Of a stretch of 48,095 nucleotides of DNA, positions 1,214-34,623 are shown piece after piece. A program made the translations under genes and the position numbers. The stretch is from a virus. The notes beneath the pieces are model-generated. The model was not told the origin of the DNA. It made no database searches and saw only the letters and a list, made by a program, of their open reading frames with translations. Position 1 is the stretch's first letter, and the number at the start of each line of letters is the position of its first letter. Location of the stretch: positions 1-48,095 of IMG/VR virus record IMGVR_UViG_3300015371_000063. The stretch is one strand, 5' to 3'.

Positions 1214-4200
1214 CACAACAGCACCGGTGAGCCGGCCGCCAGATTTCCGGCGCCGAGCGTGACCATCGAGGCGGGGTTGGCCTTGTTGATGTCAATGCGG
1301 AACGCGCCTTGCATCGCGGCGGTCACCGTGTCAGCGGAACGAATGTGCCAATCGAGTTGGCCCTCGTCGGCGGCGGCCGATTCCCATGACGCCCGCCACG
1401 ATCCGCCGGCGATCGGCGCCATCGCGATTTGCTCCTCGACCGGTTTGCGGAAGCGGCGATAGGCCAGATAGAGCATCGCCGAAACCGGCTGCGTCGGGTC
1501 GCCGTTCACGTCGACAAAGGTCACCGTCCAGACCACGGTCGAGCCGCGCACCACAATGTCGGCGTTTGCCATCACGGGCCTCGTTATTCCGTCCTCGGCG
1601 ATTTCCTCGACCGTCACGCTGCCGTCCGCCGTGCCGATGCTCACCGAACCGCCGGCCGGCCAAACGCTGACGACGCCGCCGACGATGATCTTGATCGTGA
1701 AGTTCGGCACGCCGAGCACCGGCGCGCCCGAGGAAAGCGACGCGGCGGTCAACACGTAAAATTGCCCGAGCGATGGCCTTCCGAGGATCGGCTTGCCGGC
1801 CGCCAAGGCCCGCGCCACAAGCTTGTTCTGTTGGACGAGCGTCGCGCTATCGAGGATCGGCGCGCCGGCTCGGAGTGCTACCGCGATGAGCTTGTGCTTT
1901 TCCTTGAGCGAGGGCGTGCCGAGGATCGGCGCGCCGGCCGACACCGGGATTGCGGTGAGCGCCGCGATCTGCCGCAACGTCGCGGCGCTGAATTTCGGCA
2001 AACCGGTTTTGAGCGAAACCGCCGCCGGGATGATGTGATTTTGCGTCAGCGACACCGCGCCGAACGCCGGCCGGCCGGCGGCGAGTGAGGCGGCAACGAT
2101 CCTATGGCGTTGCGTGATCGTCGGCGTGCCGAGGATCGGCGAACCGGGCTTGAACGACACCGCCGCCATCGTTCCGTTGATGAACAATTGCGGCGACGGC
2201 AGGATCGGCGCGCCGGTCTTGAGGTTGGCCGCACCGATGAAATGATATTGCTTGAGCGTTGCGGCGCTGAATGCCGGATGGCCGGCCGTCAGCGATGATG
2301 CCGCAAAGGCATTGAGTTGCGTGAGCGCCGGCGTGCCGAGCGATGGCGAACCGGGTTTGAACGATACCGCCGCCAACACTTGCCGCTGCACGAGCGTCGC
2401 CGCGCCAAATGTCGGCGAGGCGGTGGTGAGGTTGGCGGCGGCGAGGCCGTGCCTTTGGGTAAGCGTTGCCGCGCCGAACGACGGCGAACCGGTCTTGAAG
2501 CTGACCGCCGCCAATTGCCCGGCCTGGAACAATTGCGGCGTGCCGAGCGATGGCGCGCCGGTGGTGAGCGATGCGGCCGAAAGCGTAATGAGGCCCGACG
2601 AAATCGTAACCGTTGGTGACGAGCCGAACGGGCCGCTGTTGGTTAGCTCGGCCCCGACCAGCGCGCCCGAGAATACGGTCAGCGCCGGCGCAACATCGAC
2701 GACCGGCGACGGTGCGGTGAGGTTCGCCGGAACGATGGCACCGGCCGGCACCAAGGCCGGCACGCCGAGCGTCGGCGCACCAACCGAAAACGAAACCGCG
2801 AACAGGCCGCCGAATGCGACAAGCGCGGGCGGGGCGTCGACGACTGGCGACGGTGCGGTGAACGATGCGGCGGTGAGCGGAACAGGTTGAGCGAGCGACA
2901 CCGCGCCAAATGTCGGCGAGGTCGTGGTGAGATTGGCGGCGGCCAACACATGCCGTTGGGCGAGCGTGACCGCGCCGAGCGTCGGCGAGGCGGCGGCGAG
3001 GCTGGCGGCGGCAAGCGCGTGCCGCTGCGTCAATGTCGGTGCGCCAAGCGTCGGCGAGCCGATGGTGAGGTTGATCGCGGCCAATTGGCCGGCTTGCAGC
3101 AATTGCGGCGTTGCCAGGATCGGCGAACCGGCCGCCAGGTTTGCCGCCGCCAGCACATGCCGTTGGCCGAGCGTGACCGCGCCAAATGTCGGCGCGCTTA
3201 CGGTAAACGAGGCGGCGGCTAGAACATTGCTTTGGCCGAGGATGACCGCGCCGAACGTCGGCGCGGCGGTCGTGAGGTTCGTCGCCGCAAGATTATGCCG
3301 CTGCGATAGCGAGGCCGCCGAAAACGATGGCGAACCGGTGGCGAGGGCGGTCGCCGAAAACGTGTGACTTTGAACGACCGTCGCGGTGCCGAACGTCGGC
3401 GCGGCGGTCGTGAGGTTGGCGGCATCGAGCGCGTAAAACACCGTAACCGCCGGTGCCGCGTCGGTGACCGCCGCCGTCGAGGTCAACGCGGCGGCGGCGA
3501 GCGGTGTCTCGCCACCCGGAAGGCTAACCGCGCCGAACGTCGGCGCGCCGGTCGTGAGGTTGGCCGCCGTCAAGCTGCCGTCGGATGCGGTCAGCGCCGG
3601 CGCGGCGTCGATTGTCGCGGCGGGAGCGCTGAAACCGCTCGCCGCAACAACGTTTTGTTGAACGATCGTCGCGGCGCCGAACGATGGCGAGCCGGTGGTT
3701 TTCCCGGCGGCGGCGAGGCCGATGATCTCCTTAAACGCGACGTAACAACTCGCATAGATCGCCGACACATAGGTCGGGTCCGACGCGGCGGCGGTGCCGG
3801 TGACGATCCGGTGCTCGGCGCGACAGCATATCTCGCCGACCGTGCCGGTGGTCGCGCTGTTGCCGTTGCCCCATGCCGTCCACGAGGCCGTTGGCGTCAG
3901 GTTGGTATTGTTGCCGACTTGGCTCGCGATCGCGCGAACCCGCAAGCATTCGACGTTGGCCGTCGTAACGTCGAGCGAGGCTGGATCGGCACCGGTGTTG
4001 TTGACCAGCGTGCCGGGCGTGCCTTCGATCGCGACCGTCGCTCCGGCCGTAATCGAAAATTTCCGGGTCACCAAAGCGGAAGCGTCGACCAGCGTGCCGC
4101 TGCCGAACGTCGCGCGGATAATTCCGCCGGAAGCGAGCCCGCTGGTGGCGACGCCGTACCATATTGAGCTTGACGCACCGGCCTGCGCGGTGAGCGCGTT

Positions 4201-20528: not shown

Positions 20529-22007
20529 TCAAAAAAGCTTCGGTTCCGGGTCGGCGTCGGGGTGTAGCCGGGCGACATAAATGCAGGCGTTCCGCTTTGA
20601 CGGTTTTTGCGCGATCGGGCCTTGCCCGGTTTTGACCTCGCCCGACTTGAGCATGGCGTGCATGGCGTCGCGGAACATTCGCATTCGGACGCGGTAGCTC
20701 GAATGCAGCGGTGTTGCTTCGGGAAGCTTGGCGAACACGCTCGGGGCAAAGTTCCGCGCGGTGGTGGCCGGCGAAACCGGAATGTCGTTGTTGTTGTGGA
20801 ATTCGAGCAATTGCTTGAAAACGCCGTTGGTCGCGCGGTCGGCGGTGGCGCGATCGTAGCTTGTGGCCGGCATGATCTGGCCGGGCGCGAGCGCCAAGAG
20901 GCCGTCTTTCCACGACAATTGCAATTTGTCGCCGTGCGCCGAGTAATTCGCTTTCATGGTTTCCAGCACGCGCACGTCGGCCTCGGCCTCGCCTTCCTCG
21001 GGCCGGTAGAGGTAGAGCCGCGAGCGCACCGAATTATTCCAAGCCGTCGAGCCGCTTTGGCCGTCGCCCTCGCGCATTCCGGCGCGGCTCGGATGGGAAA
21101 GCAAGAGCGCCGCGCAATCGACGCGGACGGCGAGCCCGCGCAACAGGTTGACGCATTGCCGGGCCTGACTTCGATCGCGTTCCTCGACCACGAACATATC
21201 GGCGGCGGTATCGAAACCGATCCACACCGGCTTGATCCGCTCGGCCTCGCGCGCCACCGCCTCGAACAGCGCGGTCGGCTTGATCAATCCGCTTGGCGTG
21301 GTGATCGCCAGCGCCGACTCCTCGCCGACCAGCGTCACGATATGCAGATCGGCAAGCTCGTCGAAGCCTGCGCCGTAATGCGAGGCGATCCGGTCGAGCC
21401 GGAAATGGATTTCGGCGGCGTCGTCCTCGGCCGAGACGAGCATCACCGGGCCGGGCGTCGGCATCATGCCGAGCCAATCGCGGCCGAGCACGGTGGCGAC
21501 CGCCAATTGCTGCGCGAGCAAGGTTTTGCCGACGCCACCGTCGCCCGACAACAACGTGACATTGGCCATCGGCACGAGGTTTTGCACGACCCATCGCCGG
21601 GCCGGTGCCGGCCGAACGAGGTGCACGATGTCGAGGTAGCGCAATTGCCGCGCTGGCGGCGCGTCGGTCGGCGGCGCGTCGGTCGGCGGCGCGTCGGGCG
21701 GGGCGAGCGGGAAATCGTCGACCGACCCGTTGGTGCGCGGCGCATCCAAGGCGTCGATGATGGTGCGCTCGACCACCTCGAGCCCACCGAGCGAATTGAC
21801 GAGGTCGTGCCGCTCGGCCCGCTCGATGAGTTCGTCAATGATCAGCGTTCGATCGGCCCCGTTCCTGACGAAATCCGCGCCCTCGGTGATGCAATTGCGG
21901 AACACTTGCGGGCGCATATCCGGCGCGGCGAGCGCAATCATGCGTGACCATAAGCTGACGCCGTCGGCGAACCGGCCAAGCTCGGCCATGCCTTCAAGAT
22001 CGGCCAT
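20529..22007 (-). CDS. RepA-like AAA ATPase / replicative helicase
   Basis: A 492-residue protein. Residues about 120-400 are an AAA_25/RepA-type RecA fold: Walker A GDGGVGKT at 155-162, then PGPVMLVSAEDDAAEIHFRL, and later ERIKPVWIGFDTAADMFVVE, CAALLLSHPSRAGMREGDGQ and GSTAWNNSVRSRLYL. These match hexameric helicases of the RSF1010 RepA family used by many phages. The N-terminal 100 residues resemble the DnaB N-terminal helical domain. Before the ATPase is a short PPTDAPPTDAPP repeat. The C-terminal part may bind a partner. It is probably the phage's replication helicase/initiator. Confidence 0.85.
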   Translation of the reverse strand: MADLEGMAELGRFADGVSLWSRMIALAAPDMRPQVFRNCITEGADFVRNGADRTLIIDELIERAERHDLVNSLGGLEVVERTIIDALDAPRTNGSVDDFPLAPPDAPPTDAPPTDAPPARQLRYLDIVHLVRPAPARRWVVQNLVPMANVTLLSGDGGVGKTLLAQQLAVATVLGRDWLGMMPTPGPVMLVSAEDDAAEIHFRLDRIASHYGAGFDELADLHIVTLVGEESALAITTPSGLIKPTALFEAVAREAERIKPVWIGFDTAADMFVVEERDRSQARQCVNLLRGLAVRVDCAALLLSHPSRAGMREGDGQSGSTAWNNSVRSRLYLYRPEEGEAEADVRVLETMKANYSAHGDKLQLSWKDGLLALAPGQIMPATSYDRATADRATNGVFKQLLEFHNNNDIPVSPATTARNFAPSVFAKLPEATPLHSSYRVRMRMFRDAMHAMLKSGEVKTGQGPIAQKPSKRNACIYVARLHPDADPEPKLF

Positions 22008-22980
22008 TTAATTCCCTAAGCTTTGTCGAAGCACGCGATGAACTCGGCCGCGACTTGAGGCACGATCGCGTTGCCGTAGGCGCGCAGCTTAGATGCTCTG
22101 CGCTGTATCCCATGAGCCAGCGGGAATGTGCCGGGCTCAACTGGCCGGGCTTTTCCATCGACGCAGGCGAGCCATTCCGCACCAGTCCACCCATCAGCAA
22201 TTCGCCCTTGCGTTTGCCGCTCCTGCTCGTCTGCCCGCCCTCCATCGCATTGGGCGTCGGCCACGCCGCGGCTGCTGCGATTGCTGGCAAGTCCGACCCC
22301 GGACCCTTCCGGTTCAATTCCTTCATCGCGCCCCGGTGTGAGCGCGCGCCCTTCTCGCCATCCGTTCCCTTGGCCGTGGGCCAAGCCGCCCACTGGATCT
22401 CGCCGCGCGGCGTCTGCCAACTCGCCAGATAAACTTGATTGGTCAGCGCGTTCGGATCGCAATCTTGTTGCGCCCGGCTGAAACTCGCGTGTCGCGAGTC
22501 TTGAGCCGTTGGCGTTCCCCACGAACCAGCATCGTTGTCGGACATGGGGCGCGCCGACGCTGCAAGCTGGCAGTACGGCCGCCCCGCAGGCGTACCCTTC
22601 GTCCTCCAGATCAGCGAAAACAGCGTCGAGCCAACCCCATCCAATCGCCGCTTCAACTTGCTCTCCAAAGACGATTGCAGGGCGGCGCTCGGCGATGAGA
22701 GAAAACCACGCAGGCCACAAGTGGCGTTCGTCATCGGCCGCCTTGCCCGCACCGGCGGCGCTAAAGGGCTGGCAGGGACAAGAGCCTGTCCAAACAGGTC
22801 GGTCGTCGGGCCATCCGGCGAGACGGAGGGCAACGGACCATCCGCCGATGCCAGCGAAGAAATGGGCTTGGACGTAGCCTCGGAGGTCGTCGGGCCGCAC
22901 GTCAACGATGTTTCGTTCGTCAACGTCGCCAGCGGCGATGTGTCCGGCGGCGATGAGGTTGCGGAGCCATTGCGCGGCAT
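21994..22980 (-). CDS. Long ORF overlapping the Dcm-type methyltransferase gene
   Basis: A 328-residue frame lying almost wholly inside the methyltransferase gene (22016-23011) on the same strand, shifted by one base. It shows protein-like repeats: four W-x-T-P/W-P-T segments (GSWGTPTAQDS, ASWQTPRGE, AAWPTAKGT, AAWPTPNAMEG), SAALQSSLESKLKRRLDGVG, and HSRWLMGYS near the end. I recall similar sequences recurring in phage and bacterial databases beside cytosine methyltransferases, but cannot check that here. If expressed, this is a 965-bp dual-coding region. If not, it is a by-product of the strong motif structure of the other frame. Confidence 0.45.
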   Translation of the reverse strand: MPRNGSATSSPPDTSPLATLTNETSLTCGPTTSEATSKPISSLASADGPLPSVSPDGPTTDLFGQALVPASPLAPPVRARRPMTNATCGLRGFLSSPSAALQSSLESKLKRRLDGVGSTLFSLIWRTKGTPAGRPYCQLAASARPMSDNDAGSWGTPTAQDSRHASFSRAQQDCDPNALTNQVYLASWQTPRGEIQWAAWPTAKGTDGEKGARSHRGAMKELNRKGPGSDLPAIAAAAAWPTPNAMEGGQTSRSGKRKGELLMGGLVRNGSPASMEKPGQLSPAHSRWLMGYSAEHLSCAPTATRSCLKSRPSSSRASTKLRELNGRS

Positions 22981-23011
22981 AGGGGTCGACCTCGTTGTAA
23001 TAAGCGGTCAT
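22016..23011 (-). CDS. DNA (cytosine-5) methyltransferase, Dcm type
   Basis: A 331-residue C5 cytosine methyltransferase with motif I-like HFFAGIGGWSVALRLAG, the catalytic Pro-Cys in GSCPCQPFS, motif VI-like EQVEAAIGW, motif VIII-like APHVRQRCWFVG, and a C-terminal LRAYGNAIVPQVAAEFI (motifs IX-X). Between VIII and IX is a target-recognition region with repeated ADA/NAN segments. It is an orphan: no cognate cytosine-specific endonuclease is next to it. Likely role is protection from host restriction. See the overlapping reading frame. Confidence 0.9.
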   Translation of the reverse strand: MTAYYNEVDPYAAQWLRNLIAAGHIAAGDVDERNIVDVRPDDLRGYVQAHFFAGIGGWSVALRLAGWPDDRPVWTGSCPCQPFSAAGAGKAADDERHLWPAWFSLIAERRPAIVFGEQVEAAIGWGWLDAVFADLEDEGYACGAAVLPACSVGAPHVRQRCWFVGNANGSRLATREFQPGATRLRSERADQSSLSGELADAARRDPVGGLAHGQGNGWREGRALTPGRDEGIEPEGSGVGLASNRSSRGVADAQCDGGRADEQERQTQGRIADGWTGAEWLACVDGKARPVEPGTFPLAHGIQRRASKLRAYGNAIVPQVAAEFIACFDKA

Positions 23012-23753: not shown

Positions 23754-24073
23754 CCGCCAAGCTCCTTGCGGGTCGCGGCAAGCTCGGCCACCACCGCGCC
23801 GACCAGCGAGCCGGGCGTGCCGTCGGTGTTTTTGGTGAGGGCGCCGGCGACCACGTCGAGCGGCACGCCGTACTGCAACGCCAAGCTCAACAAGATCGCG
23901 CTATCTCTTGCCGCCGCCTCGAAATCGGCACCGATCTTGCCGCCGGAAAGGAACACCTCGCCGGGCGAGCCGTCGGCATAGAACCCGATCGTGACCCGGC
24001 AATCGACCGAGCGGAAATGCAGGCCGAACGTCTCGCAGGCGCGGCGTTGTGGCAGGGCGCGGCGGTCGGTCAT
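23750..24073 (-). CDS. TSCPD-domain protein
   Basis: A 107-residue protein resembling the TSCPD domain found at the C-terminus of class II ribonucleotide reductases: FRSVDCRVTIGFYADGSPGE, VFLSGGKIGADFEAAARDSA, then LALQYGVPLDVVAGAL. The namesake TSCPD loop is replaced by NTDGTPGS. Stand-alone versions are frequent in alphaproteobacterial phages and their role is unclear; no reductase is encoded here. Coupled by overlap with the MT-A70 gene upstream. Confidence 0.75.
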   Translation of the reverse strand: MTDRRALPQRRACETFGLHFRSVDCRVTIGFYADGSPGEVFLSGGKIGADFEAAARDSAILLSLALQYGVPLDVVAGALTKNTDGTPGSLVGAVVAELAATRKELGG

Positions 24074-24930
24074 TCGGCGGCCTCGCTCACCTCATTGCCC
24101 CAAGCATCCCATCCCGGCCGAGGCGGCCCGCGCCGGTTGAGTTCGATTTTTGGCAGGGTCGGGAAATATTGCTCGATCAGTTCAAGGAATTGCTCGGGCT
24201 TTGCCGAATGTTCCTTGCGGGCGATCGTCATCACCGACGCGAATTGGTCGCCCATTGCCGGCGCGGGAATGTCGCCCTTGGTGCCGACAAGCAAAAGCTC
24301 GTGGCGATTTCGAAACCAATAGCCGGTCCCGATATGAACCTTGTCCCAAACCGCATGTGACCGATAGGCAAAGCCCCAAGCCTTGAGCACCTCGATCGCA
24401 ACGTCGAGCAACGGCACGGTGGCCCACAAGAACAACACGCAATCGTCGGCGGTGATGCTCGGCACGTCGCGGGCGGCGATGACCTCGGCCGGGCTTGTCG
24501 GGTAGTGATTATCGGCCGCGCGATCCATTCCGGTTTCCCGGCTGTACGGCTCGAACCGCCACTCGGGATCGGCAACAACAACGCCATATCGCTTTGTCGG
24601 CAAGTCGGCTTGCTTGCTCGCAAGCTCGCGCTCGCGCTCGGCCCGCCGCTCGGCTTTGGTGGTGGGGCTTTTTGCCCCGCTTTCCGGGGCACTTTTCCCC
24701 ACGTCCCGACGAATTGTTTTGTGGTCAACGCCCAACACTTTCGCTGCCTGCCGCTGGCTCATGCCGCTTTCAATGAGCTTGGCCGCCGTCTCGCGCCGCG
24801 CGGCCACCGTCAACCGCAATCGTTCGTGTGTGGTGTGCCCGCCCTCGACGCCCCAATCGACAAGATCGCGGACGTTCGTCAGCAAGCTTCCGGCAATTTT
24901 GGTAAACGCTGCGTCGTGGTCTTTTTTCAT
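24070..24930 (-). CDS. MT-A70 family adenine methyltransferase with HTH
   Basis: A 286-residue protein. The N-terminal part contains a helix-turn-helix (SQRQAAKVLGVDHKTIRRDV, about 58-77). The catalytic domain starts near 113 with GVVVADPEWRF: the usual DPPW motif reads DPEW here (121-124). It continues with NHYPTSPAEV, FLWATVPLLDVAIEVLKAWG, RNRHELLLVGTKGD, and KPEQFLELIEQYFP. The family makes N6-methyladenine in DNA or RNA. The gene overlaps the PD-(D/E)XK gene upstream (ATGA). A restriction-modification-like pair is one reading; a maintenance-type methyltransferase is the other. Confidence 0.88.
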   Translation of the reverse strand: MKKDHDAAFTKIAGSLLTNVRDLVDWGVEGGHTTHERLRLTVAARRETAAKLIESGMSQRQAAKVLGVDHKTIRRDVGKSAPESGAKSPTTKAERRAERERELASKQADLPTKRYGVVVADPEWRFEPYSRETGMDRAADNHYPTSPAEVIAARDVPSITADDCVLFLWATVPLLDVAIEVLKAWGFAYRSHAVWDKVHIGTGYWFRNRHELLLVGTKGDIPAPAMGDQFASVMTIARKEHSAKPEQFLELIEQYFPTLPKIELNRRGPPRPGWDAWGNEVSEAAE

Positions 24931-33077: not shown

Positions 33078-33274
33078 TGTCGTCCTTCCAATTCTTTATG
33101 GATAGCCCGCCAAGCCGCCACGCCCTCGGCGCATTCCTTGGCGGTGTTGTATTTCAACCGCACGCATTCGTCGGGCGACACGCCCACTTGTTGCAAAACG
33201 CTCGGCGACTCGCGGCGCACCACAACGAACAACAGCACGACGGCGAGGCCGACGATTAACAGGAACGCTTTCAT
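33074..33274 (-). CDS. Small membrane-anchored protein
   Basis: A 66-residue protein with an N-terminal membrane helix (KAFLLIVGLAVVLLFVVV) and a short soluble tail with two Cys (DECVRLKYNTAKECAEG). Both ends overlap neighbours by ATGA, linking the integrase and the second PEP-CTERM-like gene in one operon. Function unknown. Confidence 0.7.
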   Translation of the reverse strand: MKAFLLIVGLAVVLLFVVVRRESPSVLQQVGVSPDECVRLKYNTAKECAEGVAAWRAIHKELEGRQ

Positions 33275-34623
33275 CGCGCCACCGCCTTCATCGGAACCAC
33301 CTTGCCGGTGCGCTTGCGCATCGGCCCGGCGTCGAGCGTCGCGGCGCGCATTTTGCGCCGCGTTTCGCCAAGGATTTGCTTGGCGTAATGGTCGTTGATG
33401 ATCTTTGCCGAGGTGTCATAGGTCTTGGCGATCGACAGAAGGTCGACGTTGTTGGCGGCGACTTGCGCGGTGATAGCGGTGTGTCGCAGGGAATACATGG
33501 TCGGGCCGTAGCGGCCGACCTCGCGGCCCTTGGTGCGGCCCTCGACGCGCTTGGCGAAACCGAGCGCGACCATGATCTTGCGAAACCCGTTGATGTGATC
33601 GTCGTCGCCGGCCGACCAGCGATGGCCCTTCGGGTTGAGCAACAGCGGCTCGTTGCGCGCCCGGCCGGCGATCGACGCGCGCAGGCGGCGGGCAAAGTCG
33701 AGCGGCAGCGAAACCGGCGTGCGCACCCGTTCCTTTTTCTTGCCCTTGCGCGACGCCATGACGTTGAGGAACGGGTCGGTCGGATCGTCGTCCTCGAAAT
33801 GCTCGACGTTAAGCTCGGCAAGCTGCGACGGCCGCACGCCGAGCGCGTTGGCCTCGACCCAAAGCCCGAACCGCTCGCCCTGATCATAGGCCGCCTGGAT
33901 GATGGCGACCGCCTCGCGTTGCTTGAACGGCTTGCGGTTGACGCTCGCGGTGTGCGGCAAATCGGTGAGGCCGTAGCGCCACGCGTTGCCATTGGTGATG
34001 CGCTTGTGATCCTTGCGGGCCGCGAGGTTGAGCGCGGCCTTTAATCCGCGCATGACGCGGTTGACCGCAGCACCGGTGACGCCGCGATGGGAGCGCACCC
34101 AATCGCGCCACCGCCGCCAATCGTCCTCGGTGGTGTCCTGCACCGGCTTGGACAACAGATTGATGCGGGTCGCGTCGCGATAGGCGGCGAGGTGGTTGGC
34201 CGGTTGCGTGGCGTTCCAGATCGCGCCGCCCCGGCTCAACAGGTCGCCCTTGTATTGGTAGAGCGCCTCGACCACCGTGATCGGTTCGAAGCCTGCGAGC
34301 TTGGTCGCGTCGCCGCCGTGTTTGGCGTAATCGCGGGCGCGGGCGAACGCCTGCGAATAGCTCAACACCGTTTCGCCGTTGGCCTGCGCGTAATCGTCGG
34401 CGATGGCGAGCCGCTTGCGCGTATTGGTGCCGTCGCCGTTTGACCAGCGGACATGCCACATGCCGGCTTTGTTTTTCTTGCGCGATGGTTGGTAGCCGAC
34501 GGCGAGGCCGACCGAGACGTTGACGAAATGCGGCTTGCCGAGCTTGCGCATGTCGACTCGCGCCCTGCGCGATGCGAGGTCGACCGATTTCCCGAACTCA
34601 AGCTTGAGCGGTGTGTCGGACAT
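33271..34623 (-). CDS. int: Tyrosine-family integrase
   Basis: A 450-residue tyrosine recombinase, somewhat longer than lambda Int. Core-binding region about 110-205 (ALYQYKGDLLSRGG, RGLKAALNLAARKDHKRIT). Catalytic domain: Arg264 in LGVRPSQLAELNVEHF, the LRHTAIT box with Arg380/His381 preceded by RYGPTMYS, and the nucleophile Tyr413 in INDHYAK. The family integrates phage DNA at an attachment site, so this phage is temperate. The N-terminal part (about 30-70) includes an Arm-type DUF4102-like start. I could not locate attP; it is probably within about 500 bp. Confidence 0.92.
   Translation of the reverse strand: MSDTPLKLEFGKSVDLASRRARVDMRKLGKPHFVNVSVGLAVGYQPSRKKNKAGMWHVRWSNGDGTNTRKRLAIADDYAQANGETVLSYSQAFARARDYAKHGGDATKLAGFEPITVVEALYQYKGDLLSRGGAIWNATQPANHLAAYRDATRINLLSKPVQDTTEDDWRRWRDWVRSHRGVTGAAVNRVMRGLKAALNLAARKDHKRITNGNAWRYGLTDLPHTASVNRKPFKQREAVAIIQAAYDQGERFGLWVEANALGVRPSQLAELNVEHFEDDDPTDPFLNVMASRKGKKKERVRTPVSLPLDFARRLRASIAGRARNEPLLLNPKGHRWSAGDDDHINGFRKIMVALGFAKRVEGRTKGREVGRYGPTMYSLRHTAITAQVAANNVDLLSIAKTYDTSAKIINDHYAKQILGETRRKMRAATLDAGPMRKRTGKVVPMKAVAR

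Follow-up and report, generated by a model that had tools for sequence, protein, structure and literature searches.

A conserved second reading frame overlapping a phage C5-cytosine methyltransferase gene, and its possible role as the recognition half of the enzyme

Multispecific C5-cytosine DNA methyltransferases (C5-MTases) of Bacillus phages carry tandem recognition domains in one frame and one chain. In M.EcoHK31I, the open reading frame (ORF) of the smaller chain lies inside the larger gene in a different frame. Motifs I–VIII and X of M.EcoHK31I are present in one chain and motif IX in the other (PMC3404938). The domain that carries the variable region and motif IX makes the specific contacts, and the predicted target-recognition domain of M.EcoHK31I was assigned to the larger chain (PMC3404938). 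M.AquI (CYCGRG) is also a two-chain C5-MTase (PMC3404938). The ShiLan insertion places a hidden HNH endonuclease within a phage methylase gene, in an alternate frame (PMC11855218); beyond this paper, we found no literature on an overlapping methylase frame.

The window analyzed here is a stretch of 48,095 nucleotides of viral DNA (positions 1 to 48,095 of IMG/VR record IMGVR_UViG_3300015371_000063). A temperate tailed phage is suggested by its gene for an integrase-like protein (33271–34623, minus strand; phrog_1) and by the presence of terminase, capsid, and portal genes. The C5-MTase gene (22016–23011, minus strand; frame 0) encodes the larger polypeptide of 331 residues, and a second methyltransferase gene of the MT-A70 (adenine) type is located nearby (24070–24930, minus strand). 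The frame-0 protein matched Pfam PF00145 over residues 75–176 (E 1.7e-17) and phrog_363 (E 2.5e-81). Its membership of the C5-MTases is supported by motif I (FFAGIGG, residues 51–57; 22841–22861), motif IV with the catalytic Cys (PCQPFS, residues 79–84; 22760–22777), motif VI (residues 116–119; 22655–22666), which is GEQV with an invariant E and not ENV, the motif VIII region (APHVRQRCWF, residues 154–163; 22523–22552), and motif X (YGNAIVPQ, residues 312–319; 22055–22078), all on the minus strand and all kept in 72 homologs. Frame 0 thus has motifs I–VIII and X without motif IX, and its residues about 166–280 are a weakly constrained linker.

The initial annotation had pointed to a second long ORF, shifted by one base, inside the MTase gene, and both ORFs are indeed present on the minus strand. 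The second ORF (21994–22980; +1 frame) starts with ATG and would encode a second polypeptide of 328 residues, an assignment that rests on phrog_1008, tblastn, selection tests, and composition. It overlaps the MTase gene almost end to end in a phase one base downstream; counted without regard to the ATG, the +1 reading frame is open for 337 codons in the window. The +1 protein is basic (pI 10), whereas the frame-0 protein is acidic (pI 5.3). It matched phrog_1008 (E 2.7e-20) and also phrog_31772, both labelled 'DNA methyltransferase'; the catalytic motifs are absent from the +1 frame. No convincing match to the +1 protein was obtained in Pfam, NCBIfam, or PDB chains. As in ShiLan, a phage methylase gene would encode a second protein in an alternate frame, but ShiLan carries a mobile insert, whereas the +1 frame of the window spans the whole gene. 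An insert comparable to the hidden HNH gene (PMC11855218) was observed in the Komagataeibacter phage phiKX1 (L188, 2539–3057), where the MTase gene contains an inserted HNH endonuclease (Pfam HNH, E 6e-6) that is likewise in the +1 frame and leaves frame 0 open. In another locus (L020), the MTase reading is 652 residues long and includes roughly 170 inserted codons (about 1991–2560). In the +1 frame, this insert has a cysteine-rich, HNH-type look and is continuous with the +1 ORF without a stop; it had no match in Pfam, so that its HNH identity is unsupported.

A chance origin of the long +1 ORF through GC-rich codon usage is favored by a GC content of 64% here and by other long shadow ORFs in the window, such as a 446-residue ORF (20607–21947, plus strand) antisense to the AAA-ATPase gene (20529–22007). 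However, synonymous shuffles of the window MTase codons gave an expectation of 4.8 stops in the +1 frame, with 155 codons for the longest open run, and the observed single stop and run of 329 codons were matched by none of 200 shuffles. Twenty other genes of the window, analyzed as a control, were mostly like their own shuffles. In 78 homologous MTases from viral contigs, most of them 50–60% identical to the window MTase, the +1 frame was open over nearly the whole gene except for the first 60–130 nt. Over MTase residues 101–318 of 72 diverged homologs, the +1 frame contained no stop against about 175 expected from synonymous shuffling, and the +2 frame contained 501 against 422 expected. Long +1 frames were also present in relatives of low GC content (0.44–0.50), with runs of 283 codons in a Paenibacillus plasmid gene, 236 in the Paenibacillus phage Jacopo, and 329 in a Bacteroides phage; the +2 frame there reached only 57 or less. 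The shuffles, the controls, the sequence conservation, and the low-GC homologs contradict a chance ORF, and this explanation was dropped as practically excluded on the shuffle results and the stop counts in homologs.

Third-position diversity, relative to that expected for the same MTase residue, was 0.94 for residues 1–36 and 0.87 for residues 37–100, and it was 0.49 for residues 101–165, 0.45 for residues 240–318, and 0.21 for residues 286–300. The first ~90 residues of the window +1 ORF are only weakly constrained (0.87 of expected). At MTase residue 291, which is Val in 72%, the third base never varies and Leu is the +1 residue throughout; the third base is also invariant at residue 293, which is Pro in 86%. 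An OLGenie-style count in close pairs gave a +1 dNN/dNS of 1.52 upstream of the usual +1 start and of 0.51, 0.48, 0.53, and 0.30 in successive regions downstream of it. The frame-0 ratio in the repeat region was 0.95, which indicates that +1 is the constrained frame there. When the +1 codons were shuffled in a reverse test, the MTase frame had 1 stop through the modules against 453 expected, while the third frame had 766 against 755. Thus, frame 0 must be read through this region, although its residues there hardly matter, as in a linker. It should be mentioned that codon shuffles ignore kinship among the sequences, although most pairs are far apart at silent sites. The initial annotation had proposed that dual coding be judged by purifying selection in both frames and refuted by stops or frameshifts of the second frame in close homologs. 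The former was found in the stop depletion, third-position diversity, dNN/dNS, and reverse shuffle; none of the latter occurred in the conserved part of intact loci, with no stop in 72 homologs. That the second frame is genuine and subject to purifying selection of its own is close to certain; its translation in the window phage is inferred.

This inference of translation has only an indirect basis, namely a kept start codon and a Shine-Dalgarno-like site. In the window, the +1 ATG (22978–22980) is formed by TAT-G at MTase residue 11, with a Shine-Dalgarno-like GAGGT (22989–22993, minus strand) 8 nt upstream. The codon for Tyr11 is TAT in 30 of 57 sequences against a usage of 0.24. The usual +1 start, found in 47 of 72 homologs, is an ATG formed by GAT-G at MTase residues 37/38 (D37/V38); Asp37 is encoded by GAT in 48 of 66 against 0.33 overall (p 5e-11), and a Shine-Dalgarno-like site is present upstream of the +1 ATG in 30 of 47, with 7.7 expected. 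Most homologs lacking the D37/V38 ATG have another in-frame ATG. Three loci have no ATG nearby, which indicates that the +1 start is not universal.

The W-x-T-P modules, proposed as target-recognition modules on the basis of module evolution and mycobacteriophage homology, occupy +1 residues 154–262 (22195–22521, minus strand). W-x-T-P is found at +1 residues 154, 188, and 240, with an extra WPTA at 200, and the terminal HSRWLMGY corresponds to residues 285–292. Both had been described in the initial annotation as paired with ADA/NAN motifs of the MTase frame. This pairing is correct for W-P-T-P by codon arithmetic, as xTG GCC GAC GCC is read as L/V-A-D-A in frame 0 and as W-P-T-P one base later, but not for HSRWLMGY, which overlaps MTase PLAHGIQ. 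The coincidence of the repeats in both frames could also reflect a conserved DNA-level repeat merely readable in two frames, an option originally offered beside true dual coding. Since the alignment of the module region is uncertain, modules were cut from each W-x-T-P to the next and compared between loci without gaps. In 24 pairs of at least 90% identity, differences per codon at +1 positions 1, 2, and 3 were 0.039, 0.042, and 0.145, respectively, and the third +1 position stayed fastest down to 60% module identity. A constraint on DNA would be even across positions, whereas differences were about three times more common at +1 third positions. Because of this excess in shared modules, the DNA-level repeat was dropped as extremely improbable, and true dual coding was retained, in agreement with the third-position bias and the lack of stops. 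The modules undergo ordinary protein evolution in the +1 frame. Since the substitutions are mainly at +1 third positions, it is the W-x-T-P repeats that form protein modules, with the ADA motifs arising as a by-product. The repeats of the two frames are not independent, as constraint on the repeat acts on the +1 reading alone. In the module region of L068 (about 3110–3140), a run of AAC-type triplets is read as poly-Asn in frame 0 and poly-Thr in +1 and is a possible slippage site preserving both frames.

Downstream of the modules, the +1 frame contains a motif-IX-like block (GQLSPAHSRWLMGYSAEHLS, residues 279–298; 22087–22146, minus strand). A profile of this C-terminal block, GQLNPAHSRWLMGYPxEW, placed motif IX of M.HhaI (RKLHPRECARVMGYPDSYKV) in exact register, which was reached by none of 2000 shuffles. 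The best place of the profile was also motif IX in 3g7u (42 of 2000 shuffles reached the score) and in L208, a canonical phage MTase (88 of 500), each of which is weak alone, and the match is short. No match to the profile was detected in the C-terminal part of window frame 0, so that motif IX is confined to the +1 frame in the window. At the sequence level, the window system thus resembles M.EcoHK31I, with motifs I–VIII and X in the larger chain and motif IX only on the smaller chain, and frame 0 alone is, as far as its motifs tell, an incomplete canonical C5-MTase like the larger chain of M.EcoHK31I.

In mycobacteriophages such as Estave1 and Babsiella, L-P-T-P modules and an EWMMGWP segment follow the catalytic part of the MTase without a change of frame. 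The C-halves of the mycobacteriophage MTases matched 24–72 +1 proteins (E to 4e-13) and 0–1 frame-0 proteins, whereas the N-half matched 150 frame-0 proteins and no +1 protein. The modules of these fused MTases evolve in frame 0. In L219 and L274, which include a Megaera plasmid, motif IX is located in frame 0 directly before motif X and the modules are in +1. Because of the mycobacteriophage fusion, the register of motif IX, and the frame-0 motif IX of L219 and the Megaera plasmid, the +1 product is taken to be the missing part of the MTase: it has motif IX and a region positioned like the recognition domain, and frame 0 has motifs I–VIII and X. In the Paenibacillus polymyxa plasmid pAP1 (L273), a motif-IX-like GQLNPxWVECLMGFPLxWT was observed twice in +1 with stops between, as if the end of a module array had been duplicated. 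The single-frame versions of the mycobacteriophages are also compatible with programmed frameshifting, by which the catalytic half in frame 0 would be continued by the recognition half in +1 and then by motif X in frame 0 to give one polypeptide. This is very unlikely, since the +1 frame retains its own start codon and Shine-Dalgarno-like site and is constrained well upstream of the modules, and since frameshifting does not require the MTase frame to be held open through the modules, as it is.

The AlphaFold2 model of the window +1 protein was of low confidence (mean pLDDT 59), including the modules. One block (residues 97–143; 22552–22692, minus strand) overlapping MTase motifs VI–VIII was predicted at pLDDT 76–89 as a helix (97–115) and a beta-hairpin (121–129 and 135–143), and synonymous diversity over this domain was 0.41–0.56 of that expected. 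A Foldseek comparison of the +1 model with viral models gave only four matches with E < 0.001, at least two of which are annotated relatives of the locus. The model of the mycobacteriophage fused MTase (mean pLDDT 61) was superposed on M.HhaI with Z 22.2 and rmsd 2.9 over 213 aligned residues; its modules had pLDDT under 50, so that it is silent on the module fold.

By tblastn against phage records, the +1 frame was found in 156 with the window protein as a query and in 256 with a relative as a query. Its carriers include Proteobacteria, Paenibacillus, Bacteroides, actinobacterial and cyanobacterial phages, and Rickettsiales plasmids. The initial annotation had mentioned a recurrence in alphaproteobacterial phages, which is true but too narrow in view of the other phyla, the plasmids, and the actinobacterial and cyanobacterial phages. 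Searches of contigs and genomes revealed many further proteobacterial and other loci, and the +1 frame was present in 24 of 398 genomes of one phylum. The +1 ORF lay over an MTase in 80 of the best 80 contig loci and in all examined loci of the genome survey (best 30). No standalone +1 protein was found in the genome-contig scan (best 80 loci) or in about 400 genomes of one phylum (best 30 loci). The diverse alignment was too variable for the contig scan, and the searched collections may lack loci near the window. The sequence of M.EcoHK31I was not identified among the collections searched, including the five records of the plasmid search. Both frames are annotated in Kagunavirus ('C-specific methylase' and 'Mte8-like'), Paenibacillus phages, and Xanthomonas phages, only the +1 frame in FoX4 and phiKX1, and neither in phage Riah. 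In E. coli K1 phages, the nested +1 ORF carries the annotation 'Mte8-like', and 'Mte8' may be the UniProt mnemonic of M.EcoHK31I.

Six loci (L028, L068 with two near-identical loci, L081, L088, L140, and L144) have a nonsense codon in the MTase frame and an intact +1 frame. In L028, L068, and L081, these codons are all TAG at conserved Trp codons. An intact MTase with a broken +1 core was not found among the loci read. The six loci may be decaying copies, but they suggest that loss of the +1 protein does not precede that of the enzyme. These loci are also consistent with dual coding in which the +1 frame encodes a protein of separate function (DNA binding, anti-restriction, or regulation, for instance) that shares only the locus and an ancient module with MTases. 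In addition, the alpha-beta-beta domain is restricted to the +1 frame, even in mycobacteriophages with modules in the MTase. On the other hand, motif IX is absent from frame 0 and present in +1, the C-terminal part is found in frame as the C-half of MTases, and each examined copy of the genome survey overlaps an MTase. A separate protein is thus rather unlikely, though not negligible.

Taken together, we consider it likely that the locus encodes a two-subunit C5-MTase with its recognition half in the second frame; the assembly of the chains, recognition by the modules, and the need for both chains are inferred. Frame 0 would provide the catalytic chain, with motifs I–VIII, a disordered linker, and motif X. 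The +1 frame, with internal initiation at its own ATG and Shine-Dalgarno-like site, would provide a basic protein with the alpha-beta-beta domain, the variable W-x-T-P run as a target-recognition region, and motif IX. The two chains may assemble like the large and small domains of M.HhaI, and an exchange of modules between phages would alter the specificity. Against the two-subunit enzyme, there are no expression, binding, or methylation data, and the recognition fold is not seen in the low-confidence model. In mycobacteriophages, the MTase has modules of its own, yet the +1 frame still retains its domain and modules, and the simplest version of a two-subunit enzyme has no need of these. The shortness of the motif-IX match, the weak constraint on the first ~90 residues of the window +1 ORF, and the prediction of recognition in the larger chain of M.EcoHK31I (PMC3404938) also count against it.

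Such an enzyme would differ from M.EcoHK31I, in which recognition was predicted in the larger chain (PMC3404938), in that the selection data place recognition in the smaller chain, and in being an orphan phage or prophage enzyme with a variable W-x-T-P run in +1. It resembles M.AquI in having the recognition part and motif IX on the second polypeptide. In M.AquI, however, motif X is also in the second chain and the variable region only partly, whereas in the window motif X stays on the catalytic chain and the overlap of the genes is almost complete. As in the multispecific MTases of Bacillus phages, exchangeable modules lie between motifs VIII and IX and vary in number, but those enzymes have one frame and one chain and the window has the modules in an overlapping frame. 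The position of the modules and their exchange between phages fit the multispecific layout, judged by sequence only, with the role in specificity inferred.

Whether this extends to a large family of phage and prophage C5-MTases is evenly balanced. In such a family, specificity would reside in a second subunit encoded in +1, with exchangeable W-x-T-P modules and motif IX, where frame 0 is an open spacer, and a module exchange would rewrite the specificity in one frame and a linker in the other. What is new here is the breadth, the exchangeable modules, and the evidence from selection for recognition in a second frame. The locus is a same-strand overlap of more than 300 codons that is very widely conserved, and selection on each of the two frames can be measured at the same bases. 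It accounts for a family labelled 'DNA methyltransferase' without catalytic motifs and for the annotation of one frame, the other, or both. It may also explain why a recognition domain could appear to be missing from orphan phage C5-MTases of this type, and why expression of the annotated frame alone could fail to yield methylation.
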